64,000 nt of DNA. It comes from Collinsella sp. An307 (lineage in GTDB: Bacteria > Actinomycetota > Coriobacteriia > Coriobacteriales > Coriobacteriaceae). The notes below the pieces were generated by a model. The model was not told the DNA's origin. It saw only the letters and a program-made list of their open reading frames with translations, and did no database searches. The stretch lies in the NCBI RefSeq assembly GCF_002161805.1, contig NZ_NFIP01000002.1, forward strand, positions 1-64,000. The letters are read 5' to 3'. Shown here one piece after another: positions 1,563-56,730 of this stretch; position 1 is the first letter of the stretch, and each line of letters starts with the position of its first letter. The position numbers and the translations under genes were made by a program.

Positions 1563-3818
1563 ATGGAGAAGTTTGAGGTCGAGCGCGTTGGCGGCGAGCT
1601 TAAGCGCTTCGGTGTTGCGGGCGATCCCGTCAAGTTTGAGGTCGTCTCTCCCTTTGAGCCGTCGGGCGACCAGCCCCAGGCCATCGCCTCGCTGGTGAAG
1701 GGCGTTGAGGACGGTGACCGCTACCAGGTTCTTCTTGGTGTGACCGGCTCGGGCAAGACCTATACCATGGCAAAGACCATCGAGGCGCTCGGCAAGCCCA
1801 CCCTCGTGATGGCACCCAACAAGACGCTCGCCGCGCAGCTCGCCAGCGAGCTCAAGGAGTTTTTCCCCCATAACGCGGTGGTCTACTTTGTCTCTTACTA
1901 CGACTACTACCAGCCCGAGGCTTACGTGCCGCAGAGCGACACCTATATCGAGAAGGACGCTTCCATTAACGAAGAGGTCGAGATGCTGCGCCATCAGGCG
2001 ACGGCGTCTCTGCTCTCGCGCCGCGACGTGATTGTGGTGGCGAGCGTCTCCTGCATCTACGGTATCGGTTCGCCGGAGGACTATGCCGGCCTTGCGCCCA
2101 ACGTGGACAAGAAAACTCCACTCGAGCGCGACGACTTCATCCACACCCTTATCGATATCCAGTACGACCGCAACGACTTTGACCTCGCTCGCGGCACCTT
2201 CCGCGTGCGCGGCGACGTGGTGGACGTCTATCCACCCTACGCCGAGCACCCGCTGCGCTTTGAGTTCTTTGGCGACGAGGTTGAGCTTATTGCCGAGATT
2301 GACGAGGTCACCGGAGAGATTCTGCGGGAATACGACGCGATTCCGGTTTGGCCGGCTTCGCACTACGTGACCGAGAAGCCCAAGGTGACCGCGGCTTTAA
2401 AGACGATTGAGGAGGAGTGCGAGCAGCGAGTGGCGGAGCTCAAAGCGGCCGACAAGCTGCTCGAGGCGCAGCGCCTGCAGCAGCGCACCGACTACGACCT
2501 CGAGATGCTCGAGACCATGGGCTTCTGCAACGGTATCGAGAACTACTCGCGCCATCTCGACGGCCGCAAACCCGGCGAGCCACCCTTCACGCTCATCGAC
2601 TACTTCCCCAAGGACATGCTCTGCATCATCGACGAGAGCCATGTGACAGTCCCGCAGATTCGCGGTATGCACGAGGGGGACCGCTCGCGCAAGGTGACGC
2701 TTGTGGAGCACGGTTTCCGTCTACCCTCTGCCCTCGACAACCGTCCCTTGCGCTTTGACGAGTTTGAGGCGCGCATCCCGCAGTTCATCTACGTCTCGGC
2801 GACGCCGGGTGACTACGAGCTGCGTGTGAGCCAAAACAACGTCGAGCAGATCATTCGTCCCACGGGACTCCTCGACCCCAAGATTGATGTGCGGCCCGTG
2901 CGCGGTCAGATTGACGACCTGCTGGAAGAGATTCGCGAGCGCACCGCGCGGCACGAGCGCGTGCTGGTGACGACGCTCACCAAGCGCATGGCCGAGGACC
3001 TCACCGACCACTTGCTCGATGCCGGTGTGAAGGTGAACTACATGCACTCCGACACCGCGACGATGGACCGCGTGGACATCCTGCGCGATCTGCGCCAGGG
3101 CAAGATTGACGTGCTTGTGGGTATCAACCTGTTGCGCGAGGGCCTCGACTTGCCCGAGGTCTCGCTCGTGGCGATTCTCGATGCGGACAAAGAGGGTTTC
3201 TTGCGCAACCGTCGCTCGCTCATCCAGACTATCGGCCGCGCGGCACGCAACGCCGACGGTGCCGTGGTGATGTATGCCGACACGATCACCGACTCGATGC
3301 GCGAGGCCATCGACGAGACCAATCGCCGCCGCGCAATCCAGATGAAGTTCAACGAGGACCACGGCATTGAGCCCAAGACCGTGCGCAAGGCCATCAACGA
3401 CATCTCGAGCTTCATTGCCGAGGCGACTGAGAACGTGGGCAAACGCGACCGAAGCCGCGGCGACACACTCGGGCACGGCGCGTTCTTCACACCGGCGGGG
3501 GAGCACGGTGCCGACGAGGCGCCCGCTTCGGCAGTCTCGGACGGGCAGCAGCTTGCCGAAGAGCTTGCCAACCTGCCCAAAGACGAGCTCGCCCGCATCG
3601 TCGCCACCATGGAAGAGGATATGCGCAGCGCTTCCGAGGCCATGGACTTTGAGGAGGCGGCGCGTCTGCGTGACGCGATTGTCCATTTGCGCGCCATCGC
3701 CGAGGGAACGAGTGAGGACGAGGTCATCGAGCTTCTGCGGCGCGACGCGCGCAAGGGGAGCGTGTTTGCCTCCGGCCGCAAGCGCCAGGGCGCTCGGGCA
3801 AAGCGCGCCAAGCACTAG
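1563..3818 (+). CDS. uvrB: excinuclease ABC subunit B
   Basis: UvrB is the damage-verifying helicase-like subunit of nucleotide excision repair. It is loaded on DNA by UvrA and then recruits UvrC. The 751-residue protein has Walker [11 protein letters not shown] (about residues 59-68), the beta-hairpin region [12 protein letters not shown] that clamps DNA, the Walker B-type IIDESH, superfamily 2 motifs through QTIGRAARN, and a C-terminal UVR motif ([16 protein letters not shown]) that contacts UvrC. It is longer than the usual 660-700 residues because of a charged linker before the UVR motif and a basic tail. GAGGAGG lies before the ATG. uvrA and uvrC are also in this window. Confidence 0.97.
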
Positions 3819-52062: not shown

Positions 52063-54414
52063 ATGGCGAGCGACGCGCACGAAGATCTGCCCAAGATCTC
52101 GCAGCTGGTCGAGCTGACGAGCGATGCGGTTGCCGTATGCGGCCTCGACGGCTCCATCGGCCATGTGAACCAGCGCTTTTGCGAGCTCTCCGGCAAGAAC
52201 CGCCGGACTCTTGTGGGGTCCGACATCAAGGACCTCCTGTTCTCCGATGCGTTCGAGCGCGCGCAAGACCATCATCTGCCCTTTCCGCTCAAAGGCGAGC
52301 CGACCACGCTCAGGCTCAAGCTCAACGACGGGTCCTTCATTCCCGTCGAGGTCCGCGCGACCTCGCCCTCGGCACGCTCCAGTGATATCCGCCGCAAGAT
52401 CGCCCGCCGTCTCGCACCGCGCGAGCGCGTGCTCGTGGTGGTGCGCAGCCTCGCCGAGCAGTATGCGCGCGACCGCCAGATGCGCCGCGTCCTCTCGGAG
52501 CTCCAAACGGCCAACAAGCGCCTTTCGGGCACGCTTTCGGTCATCATGGCCACCGTGGGCGCCGAGGACCTCTCAGGGCTTCTCGATTCGGTTCTGAACA
52601 AGCTCGTCGATGCGCTCGATGTAGACGGCTCGACCATGTACTTTGCCGAGAACGGCGGCTTCAAGCTCCGCGGCATCTCGCAGAGCCTCACGCGCTCCTT
52701 CGTGCCCGAGTTCATCCCCTTTGGCGCGGGAATTCCCACCTACGTGCTGCGCGAGGCGAGGGCATGCCGCATCTCGGTCGTGCCGGCGGAGGAGGGGATG
52801 GCCTCGAGCGGTGTCTTTTACGACATCGACCACCGCGAGACGCGCCCCCTGCGCGTGCAGGACGTACCGCCCTTCAAGACGCTTATCGCCGTGCCGGTCT
52901 TTTTTGGTCGTCAGATCATGGGCATTATGGAGCTCGGCTGGGGCCGTCCGTGCCGCCCGCGCGACTACGACGTCAACGTGCTCGAGGTGATCTGCGACTA
53001 CCTCTCCATCGAGCTCGTGAGTCTCATCACGAGTATGCGGTCGCGCCGCTCGGCCGAGCTCACGCGCTCGCTCAACAACGTTCGCGACACCGTCTTTACC
53101 CTCGAGGGCGACCGCACGAGCGCCTGGGCCGAGATCTCGGCCGAGGTGCGGCGCGTCCTCGCCTGCCATATCTGCCCGGTCGTCTTTGATGCGGAGCGCG
53201 GCTGCTACGTGCTCGATTACGAGGGCGGCAGCCAGGTGGCGCTTCCCGGCGGCTCCGAGTGGCTCGGCGGCGGGAGCACCGCGCCGGCAGCCAAGGTGAG
53301 CCCTGTGGTGAGCGACTACTTTGCCGCGGGCGCCCCCGATGAGGACGGGCTCGAGTTCGCACGCGTCACCCGTATCGACCGACTCTCCCATGCGGGGGAG
53401 TGGCTGCTTGCGCACGGGCTGCCCAACCAGGGCGTCTTCATCGAGTTCGCGCCGGACAGCACCGCTTCAGACGAGGGCGAGGAGCCGGATACCGGCGCGC
53501 TTGCGCTCGCAGCGCCCAGGTCCCCCTCTGCTATGACGCCGCTCGTTCTGCTTTTGCGCGATGGGACCCAGGAGCCCATCGACGATGTGGAGTACGACTA
53601 TCTCGTCCGCCTCACCCACGAGTTCGAGCTCCTCTTCCGCCGCGAGGAGCAGAAGAGCGAGGACCGCCATATCGCGCAGGCCCTCCAGAGCGGCATGCAG
53701 AGCTCGCTCGGCGTCGTGCCGGGTATCACCACAGACGCGCTTTACTCCTCCGCCACGCGCCAGGCGCTCGTGGGTGGAGACTTCTACACGCTTATCCGCC
53801 TGCCCGACGACCGCGCCGTCATGATTCTGGGCGATGTATCGGGCAAGGGCGTCGAGGCGGCCTCCATGTCGGCCCTGGTCAAGACCGCGCTCACGGCCTA
53901 CGCGTGGGAGGGGGCGAGCCCGGTGCACATGGTGCGCTCGCTCAACAGCATGCTCATGAGCTTCTCGCGCGTGGAGACCTTCGCCACGATGTTTGTTGCC
54001 AAGATCGACCTGCGCTACCGCAGTGCCCTTTACTGTTCCGCCGGACATCCCCCTTCGATGCTCGTGCGCAGCCATACCCTGGGTGCCGGCGGAGAGACCC
54101 ATACCCAGGCGACCGAGGTCGAGCTTTTGAGCACGCAGTCGGGTGTGGTCGGCGCTTTTGAAGGCATGGCTTTTCGCAGCGGGTCGTTCCGTTTCGATTC
54201 GGGCGATGTGCTCTTCATGTACACCGACGGCGCCATCGAGGCGCGCAACGCCGCGGGCGAGTTCTTTGGCGAGCAGCGTCTGCGCGACGTGGTGATCTCC
54301 TCGGTGGGGCAGGGGGTCGACGGCCTGTGCCAGCGCGTCCTCGGCGAGCTTGACGCCTTTACCGACTCTGCGCTCGAAGACGACATCGCCATGGTCGCCC
54401 TACGCTTTGACTGA
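52063..54414 (+). CDS. PAS/GAF-sensing SpoIIE-type serine phosphatase (RsbU/RsbP-like)
   Basis: A 783-residue signalling phosphatase. Order: PAS domain (about residues 8-115, DAVAVCGLDGSIGHVNQRFC), a short helical linker, a GAF domain (about 160-330, LDVDGSTMYFAENGGF and TLIAVPVFFGRQIMGIM), a second less clear sensor region (about 345-530), and a C-terminal PP2C/SpoIIE domain (about 545-783). Metal-binding Asp residues appear in VGGDFYTL, ILGDVSGKGVEAASMSALV, MYTDGAIEARN and DDIAMVALRF. It should dephosphorylate a STAS-domain antagonist, most likely the protein encoded next door. Start ATG 52063 after GGGGAGGGG. Confidence 0.92.
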   Translation: MASDAHEDLPKISQLVELTSDAVAVCGLDGSIGHVNQRFCELSGKNRRTLVGSDIKDLLFSDAFERAQDHHLPFPLKGEPTTLRLKLNDGSFIPVEVRATSPSARSSDIRRKIARRLAPRERVLVVVRSLAEQYARDRQMRRVLSELQTANKRLSGTLSVIMATVGAEDLSGLLDSVLNKLVDALDVDGSTMYFAENGGFKLRGISQSLTRSFVPEFIPFGAGIPTYVLREARACRISVVPAEEGMASSGVFYDIDHRETRPLRVQDVPPFKTLIAVPVFFGRQIMGIMELGWGRPCRPRDYDVNVLEVICDYLSIELVSLITSMRSRRSAELTRSLNNVRDTVFTLEGDRTSAWAEISAEVRRVLACHICPVVFDAERGCYVLDYEGGSQVALPGGSEWLGGGSTAPAAKVSPVVSDYFAAGAPDEDGLEFARVTRIDRLSHAGEWLLAHGLPNQGVFIEFAPDSTASDEGEEPDTGALALAAPRSPSAMTPLVLLLRDGTQEPIDDVEYDYLVRLTHEFELLFRREEQKSEDRHIAQALQSGMQSSLGVVPGITTDALYSSATRQALVGGDFYTLIRLPDDRAVMILGDVSGKGVEAASMSALVKTALTAYAWEGASPVHMVRSLNSMLMSFSRVETFATMFVAKIDLRYRSALYCSAGHPPSMLVRSHTLGAGGETHTQATEVELLSTQSGVVGAFEGMAFRSGSFRFDSGDVLFMYTDGAIEARNAAGEFFGEQRLRDVVISSVGQGVDGLCQRVLGELDAFTDSALEDDIAMVALRFD

Positions 54415-54496
54415 CGCCGCACCGCCTGCGCCGCCGGGCACCTCCGTTTGGCGGTGCGGGTGATTAAGCGGCGCCCGCGGCGGGAACCATGAGCGT

Positions 54497-55231
54497 ATGC
54501 GTGAATGGATGGACATAGCCGTTTTGGCGCCCGTGAGCGATATCGATATCGCAACGGTGCCCGGTCTTCGCAGCGAGGTGGATTCCCTTATCGCCGCGGG
54601 GACGAGGCGCATCCTGCTCAATTGCGAAAACGTAACCTTCATCGATTCAACCGGGCTTGCATTTCTGCTCTCCCGTGCGCGGCGGCTCATACAGGAGGGC
54701 GGCATGCTCTCGCTCGTGAACGTCTCCGCCGAGGTGTCGCGCTTTCTCCAGATCGCCCGCCTCATCAGCGTGCTGCACGTGACGGCACGCGACCGCCCGC
54801 CCGTGCCCGTGCTCTCTCCGGGGACGCTCCCGGTGTGGAGCCGCAGCATCTCGGTTGCGGAGGGCATCGAGCACCTCGGCCTGTACCGGCACCGCGTGGT
54901 GGAGCTGTTGGAGACGCTACCCCTGGGGCGCGACGCGGTGTACGACACGGCGCTCGCGGCGGGGGAGGCGCTCGGCAACGCGTACGACCACGCGGGCGCT
55001 GCCGGCTGCATGCTCAACGTGCGCGCCTACGAGGACCGGGTCGTCATCGAGGTATGCGATTGCGGCGGCGGTTTTGAGATCGCGCCCGACGAGGACGTTG
55101 CCGAGTCCGAGGAGCGCGGCCGCGGCATCAAGCTCATGAGGATGCTCGTCGATAGCGCCGAGGTCAAACGTCGCGCGGACGTGCAGGGCACCATGGTCCG
55201 CCTCATCAAGCTGTTCGCACCCGCCGCCTAA
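54497..55231 (+). CDS. fused STAS antagonist - HATPase anti-sigma-type kinase
   Basis: A 244-residue protein joining two partner-switching modules. The N-terminal STAS domain (about 1-100) resembles RsbV/SpoIIAA, with the phospho-serine site in NVTFIDSTGLAFLL. The C-terminal GHKL ATPase (about 115-244) resembles RsbW/SpoIIAB, with N-box GEALGNAYDHA, G1 DCGGGFE and G2 ERGRGIKLMRMLVD. Normally these are separate proteins that bind each other. The upstream phosphatase is the natural partner. No sigma factor gene is near. The ATG follows a weak GCGGGAA site. Confidence 0.9.
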   Translation: MREWMDIAVLAPVSDIDIATVPGLRSEVDSLIAAGTRRILLNCENVTFIDSTGLAFLLSRARRLIQEGGMLSLVNVSAEVSRFLQIARLISVLHVTARDRPPVPVLSPGTLPVWSRSISVAEGIEHLGLYRHRVVELLETLPLGRDAVYDTALAAGEALGNAYDHAGAAGCMLNVRAYEDRVVIEVCDCGGGFEIAPDEDVAESEERGRGIKLMRMLVDSAEVKRRADVQGTMVRLIKLFAPAA

Positions 55232-55684: not shown

Positions 55685-55744
55685 ACTATACGGGACTCTC
55701 CAAAGGAATGCAAGCATTGTTTTGAAAAAATTTGCTGGGGTAGA
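55685..55744 (-). promoter_or_regulatory. tRNA-Gly/Cys promoter with AT-rich upstream element
   Basis: On the minus strand: -35 TTGCAT (55713-55708), 17-bp spacer, -10 TATAGT (55690-55685). CAAATTTTTTCAAA (55744-55731) lies upstream, differing at one base from the elements before tRNA-Leu and tRNA-Val. Confidence 0.75.
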
Positions 55745-55809: not shown

Positions 55810-56730
55810 GTGCTCACCATCTCGCTCTTCATCATACTGGCCTTTCTTCTGGCTCGTTTTGTGATCGGGAGCGTTCAGCGCTATCTCGAGGGCAGGGCGC
55901 GGGGCCGCGCGTTCAAGCGCATGCTCACCCAGGGCAGGCTCGAGGCGGGGGTCTACGCCGACGCCCTCTGGTCCGCCACAACCTCCGGGGCGCGCAGGGT
56001 GCGCTCCCGCATCTCCAACGAGCAGCGCAACGCGATTCTGCAGGCGCGCCTGGAGATGCGCGAGGACTTCCTCGACGACACGGTGCCGGGGCTCTACCAA
56101 TACATCATTATCTTTCTCGTTTCGTCGGTCCTGGGTCTTGTGATAGAGACGATCTACACCTTTGTGGTCTTTGGCATCTGGGAGAGTCGTGTGGGGCTCG
56201 TATGGGGTCCGTTCTCGCCGCTCTACGGTGCGGGCGCGGTTCTGCTCACCATGGTGCTCTGGCGCCTGCGCAAAGAGTCGGTCTGGAAGGTCTTTCTCAT
56301 CTCCGCGGTGCTGGGGAGTGCGCTCGAGCAGGTGTCCGGTTGGAGTATGGAGCACTTTGCCCACTTGCAATCGTGGACCTATCTGGGGTTGCCGGACCAT
56401 ATCACCCAATGGGTAGCGTGGCGTTTTGTGGTTATGGGGGGCATTCTGGGCGTGGTGTGGTGCCGCGTCATCATGCCCGAGATGATCTACCGCATCGGGG
56501 AACCCACGTCGCGCCGCCAAGTGATCTTGGTGACGCTTCTGGCGGCGTTCATCGCCCTGGACGTGACGATGACGGTCGCCTGCTTCTGGCGCGCCGGCCA
56601 GCGGTTTGAGGGCGTGCCGCCGCGCAACAGTTTTGAGATGTATGTCGATACGCATTTTGACGACCGCTTTATGGCGGAGACGTTTGAGAACATGAGGATC
56701 GGTGAGGACATTCCGCCTGCCGCAAAGTAG
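55810..56730 (+). CDS. CmpB-like putative ABC-type permease membrane protein (PF06541 type)
   Basis: A 306-residue membrane protein. After an N-terminal membrane segment and a long basic cytoplasmic stretch (about residues 20-90), it has about five further segments with the family signature VGLVWGPFSPLYGAGAVLLT. Members are called putative ABC permeases, but no ATPase accompanies this one and the function is unknown. The GTG start follows AAAAGGA. Confidence 0.8.
   Translation: MLTISLFIILAFLLARFVIGSVQRYLEGRARGRAFKRMLTQGRLEAGVYADALWSATTSGARRVRSRISNEQRNAILQARLEMREDFLDDTVPGLYQYIIIFLVSSVLGLVIETIYTFVVFGIWESRVGLVWGPFSPLYGAGAVLLTMVLWRLRKESVWKVFLISAVLGSALEQVSGWSMEHFAHLQSWTYLGLPDHITQWVAWRFVVMGGILGVVWCRVIMPEMIYRIGEPTSRRQVILVTLLAAFIALDVTMTVACFWRAGQRFEGVPPRNSFEMYVDTHFDDRFMAETFENMRIGEDIPPAAK

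Follow-up and report, generated by a model that had tools for sequence, protein, structure and literature searches.

In the SigF switch of Mycobacterium smegmatis, RsbW1 binds SigF as an anti-sigma factor and has no kinase activity, and RsbW2 is a kinase with N, G1 and G2 motifs that phosphorylates RsfB and does not bind SigF (PMC7693655, PMC10950880). The rsfB and rsbW2 genes form one operon, and the PP2C phosphatase RsfR, encoded alongside, resets RsfB (PMC7693655, PMC10950880). In Mycobacterium tuberculosis, Rv1364c carries PAS, PP2C, GHKL kinase and STAS modules in one polypeptide, the phosphatase-kinase part of which has been solved (3ke6). Our search of the open-access literature, with most subscription journals outside its scope, found no study of the arrangement described below, or of a stress sigma factor, in Coriobacteriia (Collinsella, Atopobium and relatives).

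Here, we analyzed two genes in the window (the whole 64,000-nucleotide stretch under study, from the gut bacterium Collinsella sp. An307) that lie on the same strand, 82 bases apart, and encode a phosphatase, P0001, and a STAS-HATPase fusion, P0002 (Table 1). We consider it likely that the pair supplies the kinase and phosphatase for the input side of a SigB partner switch whose parts are divided between loci.

Table 1. Coordinates of the phosphatase gene, the fusion gene and the repeat between them, in positions of the window.
Feature	Position	Strand	Evidence
P0001 gene, PAS-GAF-SpoIIE-type PP2C phosphatase, 783 aa	52063..54414	+	Pfam domains
PAS domain, residues 12-101	52096..52365	+	Pfam PAS_8 4.1e-5 over residues 12-65
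GAF domain, residues 169-318	52567..53016	+	Pfam GAF 9.7e-10
SpoIIE-type PP2C catalytic domain, residues 581-782	53803..54408	+	Pfam SpoIIE 6.5e-45
Inverted repeat CCGCACCGCC...GGCGGTGCGG, 10-bp perfect arms, between the two genes	54417..54459	+	RNA fold -48.4 kcal/mol, z -2.1
P0002 gene, STAS-HATPase fusion, 244 aa	54497..55231	+	Pfam; AlphaFold2 pLDDT 85.8, pTM 0.83
STAS domain, anti-sigma-antagonist type, residues 6-94	54512..54778	+	Pfam STAS 8e-16; TIGR00377 7e-19
Ser51 codon, predicted phospho-acceptor in FIDSTGL	54647..54649	+	Invariant in 41/41 homologues
SpoIIAB/RsbW-type HATPase domain, residues 125-238	54869..55210	+	Pfam HATPase_c_2 2.4e-16; fold matches
N-box E157...N161...H165	54965..54991	+	E157, N161 and H165 invariant in 41/41
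G1 box D188-x-G190-x-G192	55058..55072	+	Invariant in 41/41
G2 box G208-R209-G210	55118..55126	+	Invariant in 41/41

The preliminary description had read the STAS and HATPase domains as one polypeptide, and its coordinates and domains were right: both domains of P0002 scored above their Pfam cut-offs in a single frame with no intervening stop, and relatives are full-length. The N-terminal half belongs to the antagonist family (TIGR00377, 67.7 bits against a cut-off of 53.45) and carries the invariant Ser51. The C-terminal half has the GHKL fold of RsbW and SpoIIAB, as judged by Foldseek matches to 6m37_A (1.5e-7), 1th8_A (1.6e-6) and 3ke6 (2.9e-4), and contains the N-box Glu and Asn, the DxGxG of G1 and the glycines of G2. 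In the AlphaFold2 model, which is confident, two domains are seen whose halves match structures of SpoIIAA, SpoIIAB and RsbW, and the kinase domain of Rv1364c. P0002 stayed below the curated equivalog cut-offs for RsbW (27–29 bits vs 145–155) and SpoIIAB (23.7 vs 135); judged by these scores, its kinase half is a relative of, and is not filed as, RsbW or SpoIIAB proper.

Among the 41 aligned homologues, T232 of the ATPase is also invariant, the short linker contains a conserved W114 and P112, and the residues past Ser51 are highly variable. As far as an alignment can tell, such invariance is what one would see for a functional kinase and an acceptor site that is in use. The strict constraint on the ATP motifs and Ser51 argues against a dead kinase, which is unlikely with motifs invariant in 41 homologues, and against a serine that is never phosphorylated, the two possibilities that the preliminary description had set against itself.

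P0001 was described as a PAS/GAF-SpoIIE phosphatase upstream of the fusion, and both its domains and its position were borne out. Its aspartates D573, D591, D722 and D773/D774, which from general knowledge of the fold we take to be candidate PP2C metal-site ligands, did not vary in an alignment of 16 homologues; together with the SpoIIE domain they place P0001 among SpoIIE/RsbU-type PP2C phosphatases. A second GAF-like alpha/beta region (residues ~351–526) was hinted at by a low-confidence model only (pTM 0.37). The phosphatase gene lies directly 5' of the fusion on the same strand in every distant locus with sufficient upstream sequence, and likewise in 38 of 39 named loci. The sole exception is Collinsella sp. 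An7 (L056), whose genome has a SpoIIE phosphatase on a different contig. At distant loci from other orders (L092–L105), the phosphatase partner is ~1,070–1,150 aa long. Its N-terminal region shows no match to the corresponding part of P0001, so the input signal in these orders probably differs, with the output pair retained.

We also looked for local regulatory elements. The intergenic inverted repeat is partly kept in a 98% identical relative (L053) and absent from more distant loci; it was rejected as a conserved regulator since it is lost beyond the nearest relative. No SigB-type promoter (GTTT-N12-18-GGGTA) was found at useful positions before the phosphatase or RsbW gene, so this motif was dropped as proof of feedback. 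A single promoter-like match, GTTTTGAAAAAATTTGCTGGGGTA at 55719–55742, lies upstream of a membrane-protein ORF at 55810 and is at chance level (0.65 expected). An anti-phage role was rejected after PADLOC returned no match.

Next, we surveyed the distribution of the fusion in Coriobacteriia, as the preliminary description had proposed. It is full-length and single-copy in 67/67 genomes of the family, and the query was matched in 207 genomes of a class sample of 300, with strong matches (E below 1e-20) in ~196. An origin by frameshift or misassembly is ruled out by these full-length copies, and a fusion unique to this window is rejected by its class-wide occurrence. The nearest relatives of the window are 98% identical sequences labeled 'uncultured Collinsella', and named relatives bearing the fusion belong to Collinsella, Enorma and Atopobium. 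One family of the same order (f3, probably Eggerthellaceae) is without it. In matches spanning both domains from outside the class, a stop almost always separates the two; the ones inspected proved to be neighboring genes, rsbV followed by rsbW. This order, unfused in other classes, is also that of the M. smegmatis rsfB-rsbW2 operon, and the fusion probably arose by the joining of adjacent rsbV-rsbW genes. Confinement of such fusions to Coriobacteriia was rejected upon finding two in-frame STAS-HATPase polypeptides (260 and 273 aa) in another actinobacterial family (G584 and G557; L191 and L192). These resemble the Coriobacteriia fusion in being in-frame STAS-HATPase polypeptides but form their own fully supported branch (100/100), and no phosphatase gene with the same orientation was detected immediately 5' of them. 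By their placement in the tree, they look like an independent fusion event.

The preliminary description had noted no sigma factor nearby and had suggested a partner encoded elsewhere, perhaps not a sigma factor. The first observation holds for the window, and indeed for the whole contig that carries it (C10), where Sigma70_r2 matches are absent, but not for the genome. Three Sigma70_r2 matches were found, two on contig C1 and one on C16. One C1 gene (416879–417691) encodes a SigB/F/G-type sigma factor (TIGR02980, 281 bits, cut-off 234), which fits a partner encoded elsewhere; the other, the strongest Sigma70_r2 match, is presumably the housekeeping sigma factor, judging by size and score. The C16 gene is SigI-like and is followed by a probable membrane protein resembling an anti-SigI partner (L012, 1432–2963). 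SigI is best known from Firmicutes.

At 38 sigB loci, an RsbW-like ORF of ~125 aa ends near, or overlaps, the start of sigB. All 38 of these RsbW genes lack the N-box Asn, which is replaced in EEAFVYA, as well as G1 and G2. Their kinship to RsbW was assessed by profile searches: 35 of 37 members match RsbW models, and their profile matches B. subtilis RsbW at 2.4e-13 and M. tuberculosis UsfX/RsbW weakly, at ~1e-3. The Bacillus form, in which the sigB-adjacent RsbW is an ATP-dependent kinase, was not found at any of the 38 loci; on the loss of these motifs, the protein appears closer to mycobacterial RsbW1/UsfX. Within the window's genome, no protein other than the fusion scores above the HATPase_c_2 cut-off. 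Four weaker matches exist, and the three that were read look like ordinary histidine kinase tails. Because the degenerate RsbW lacks the motifs and no other HATPase_c_2 protein exceeds the cut-off, the fusion would be the only ATP-competent RsbW-type kinase found in this genome.

Lastly, contig C17 encodes a free RsbV-type STAS protein. Free STAS proteins have a textbook RsbV loop (DSTGIGVLVG or DSSGLGVLVG) with a serine invariant in 21/21. The C17 gene lies directly 5' of a tatA-like gene (L151, 3709–4876), an order also seen in some relatives (L200, L204). The parts of a SigB-type partner switch are all present in this one genome, spread over contigs C1, C10 and C17.

Across the 300-genome class sample, SigB was detected in 198 genomes, the degenerate RsbW in 198 and the free RsbV-type STAS in 190, in near-identical genome sets. 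By hand count from these searches, fusion and SigB occur together in 192 genomes, the fusion alone in four, SigB alone in six and neither in 98, and the discordant genomes are mostly incomplete or fragmented. Fisher's exact test gave p = 5.6e-66, a value that ignores relatedness and is not a count of independent events; the pattern is dominated by one large group (f3) that lacks every component, so that independent events are few. Adjacency of fusion and sigB was not seen in any Coriobacteriia locus examined. A genome of another class (G661, L190), by contrast, carries on one strand a degenerate RsbW, SigB, RsbV, a second degenerate RsbW, a STAS gene and an intact kinase. The kinase has a long branch and groups, at moderate support (90/79), with those of the fusions; the first RsbW clusters with the degenerate RsbW of the class (100/97, on long branches). 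The second RsbW-like gene (2754–3161), between RsbV and the second STAS, is highly divergent. Because of the co-occurrence with SigB and the degenerate RsbW, and of the G661 cluster, we take SigB to be the probable target of the pair; the same observations speak against the suggestion of a target other than a sigma factor.

The divided switch that we favor would work as follows. The small RsbW-like protein encoded before sigB, having lost its ATP site, would be a pure anti-sigma factor, and the HATPase domain of the fusion would be the system's dedicated serine kinase, acting on its own Ser51, on the free RsbV-type STAS from C17, or on both. On a signal, the PAS/GAF-PP2C phosphatase would strip the phosphates from the STAS proteins, which could then bind the degenerate RsbW and free SigB. 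We infer the enzymatic steps, the direction of switching and the binding partners by analogy with described switches. Viewed in this way, the fusion most likely corresponds to RsfB and RsbW2 joined in one chain and P0001 to their phosphatase, with the degenerate RsbW and SigB as distant targets.

In a variant of the SigB circuit, the role of the fused STAS may be to gate its own kinase and not to act as an antagonist, because the textbook RsbV loop is found in the free STAS and the fused STAS varies after Ser51. Unphosphorylated, it would block the kinase of its own chain or of its dimer partner; phosphorylated, it would let the kinase act on free RsbV, and the phosphatase would reset it. We advance this only tentatively; it is a version of the divided switch, and its share of confidence overlaps with that of the whole. 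The difference between the loops would be expected were the true ligand of RsbW the free STAS; the domains are joined by the short linker with W114 and P112; and in Rv1364c the kinase is reported to phosphorylate the STAS of the same protein (PMC7693655, PMC10950880). Against this, the STAS-kinase order is that of the rsfB-rsbW2 operon, in which the STAS protein is a true antagonist. If there is a gate, most Coriobacteriia could possess a self-contained on/off module of phosphatase and self-gated kinase, its output being phosphorylated RsbV read by a distant kinase-dead anti-sigma factor, a possibility that we regard as somewhat doubtful.

It is unlikely that fusion and phosphatase act on a non-sigma target, such as another transcription factor or an enzyme, with SigB co-occurring through shared ancestry. 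Among STAS proteins, some do have outputs that are non-canonical or unknown, for example BtrV/BtrW (PMC8256260), and the window has no sigma gene. Moreover, one genome from the Atopobium-containing family (G178; L149, L210) keeps the fusion, the phosphatase and RsbV, its strong SpoIIE-type phosphatases numbering five, while SigB and the degenerate RsbW were undetectable in it, possibly reflecting a rewired or other output, or an assembly gap. Nevertheless, the nearly one-to-one occurrence of the fusion together with SigB and with an RsbW devoid of ATP motifs, the presence of the same modules beside sigB in G661, and the failure to find a further ATP-competent RsbW kinase in the genome all speak against such a target. 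Very unlikely, lastly, is a fusion HATPase that itself binds SigB as the anti-sigma factor, inhibited in cis by its own STAS as a built-in antagonist: its fold does match the sigma-binding SpoIIAB and RsbW, but a separate RsbW-like gene immediately precedes sigB in every locus examined and the corresponding M. smegmatis kinase, RsbW2, fails to bind SigF (PMC7693655).

The divided SigB switch would wire the stress sigma factor of Collinsella, Atopobium and their relatives in a specific way that experiments can test. It also suggests that the division of labor between anti-sigma factor and kinase, established in mycobacteria, goes further back and is more widespread in Actinomycetota. The fusion is also a natural covalent joining of a kinase to its predicted substrate, in which switching in cis or in trans can be addressed by point mutants.

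Compared with the described systems, the Coriobacteriia arrangement is like the M. smegmatis SigF switch in that a STAS is followed by a kinase with a PP2C gene close by, at a locus apart from the sigma factor; in having an anti-sigma factor that, judging by its lost motifs, would lack kinase activity, together with a specialized kinase whose N, G1 and G2 are intact; and in encoding a second STAS antagonist elsewhere. Unlike in M. smegmatis, STAS and kinase are here one polypeptide, likened to RsbW2 by analogy rather than by direct sequence comparison, and the phosphatase, upstream on the same strand, has PAS/GAF domains where RsfR has a receiver domain. Rv1364c shares the same four kinds of module and a kinase joined to a STAS, and its kinase domain was recovered by our fold search; it is, however, a single protein in the order PP2C-kinase-STAS, whereas here there are two proteins and the STAS precedes the kinase. 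With the B. subtilis SigB switch (RsbU or RsbP, RsbV and RsbW), our locus has in common a SpoIIE-type PP2C, a STAS acceptor serine and a GHKL serine kinase, as well as a SigB-type sigma factor whose gene is overlapped or abutted by an rsbW-like gene. B. subtilis RsbW combines anti-sigma factor and kinase; in Coriobacteriia these roles appear to be split, with the kinase fused to a STAS, and control appears to be divided between distant genes in a manner so far known only in looser form from mycobacteria.
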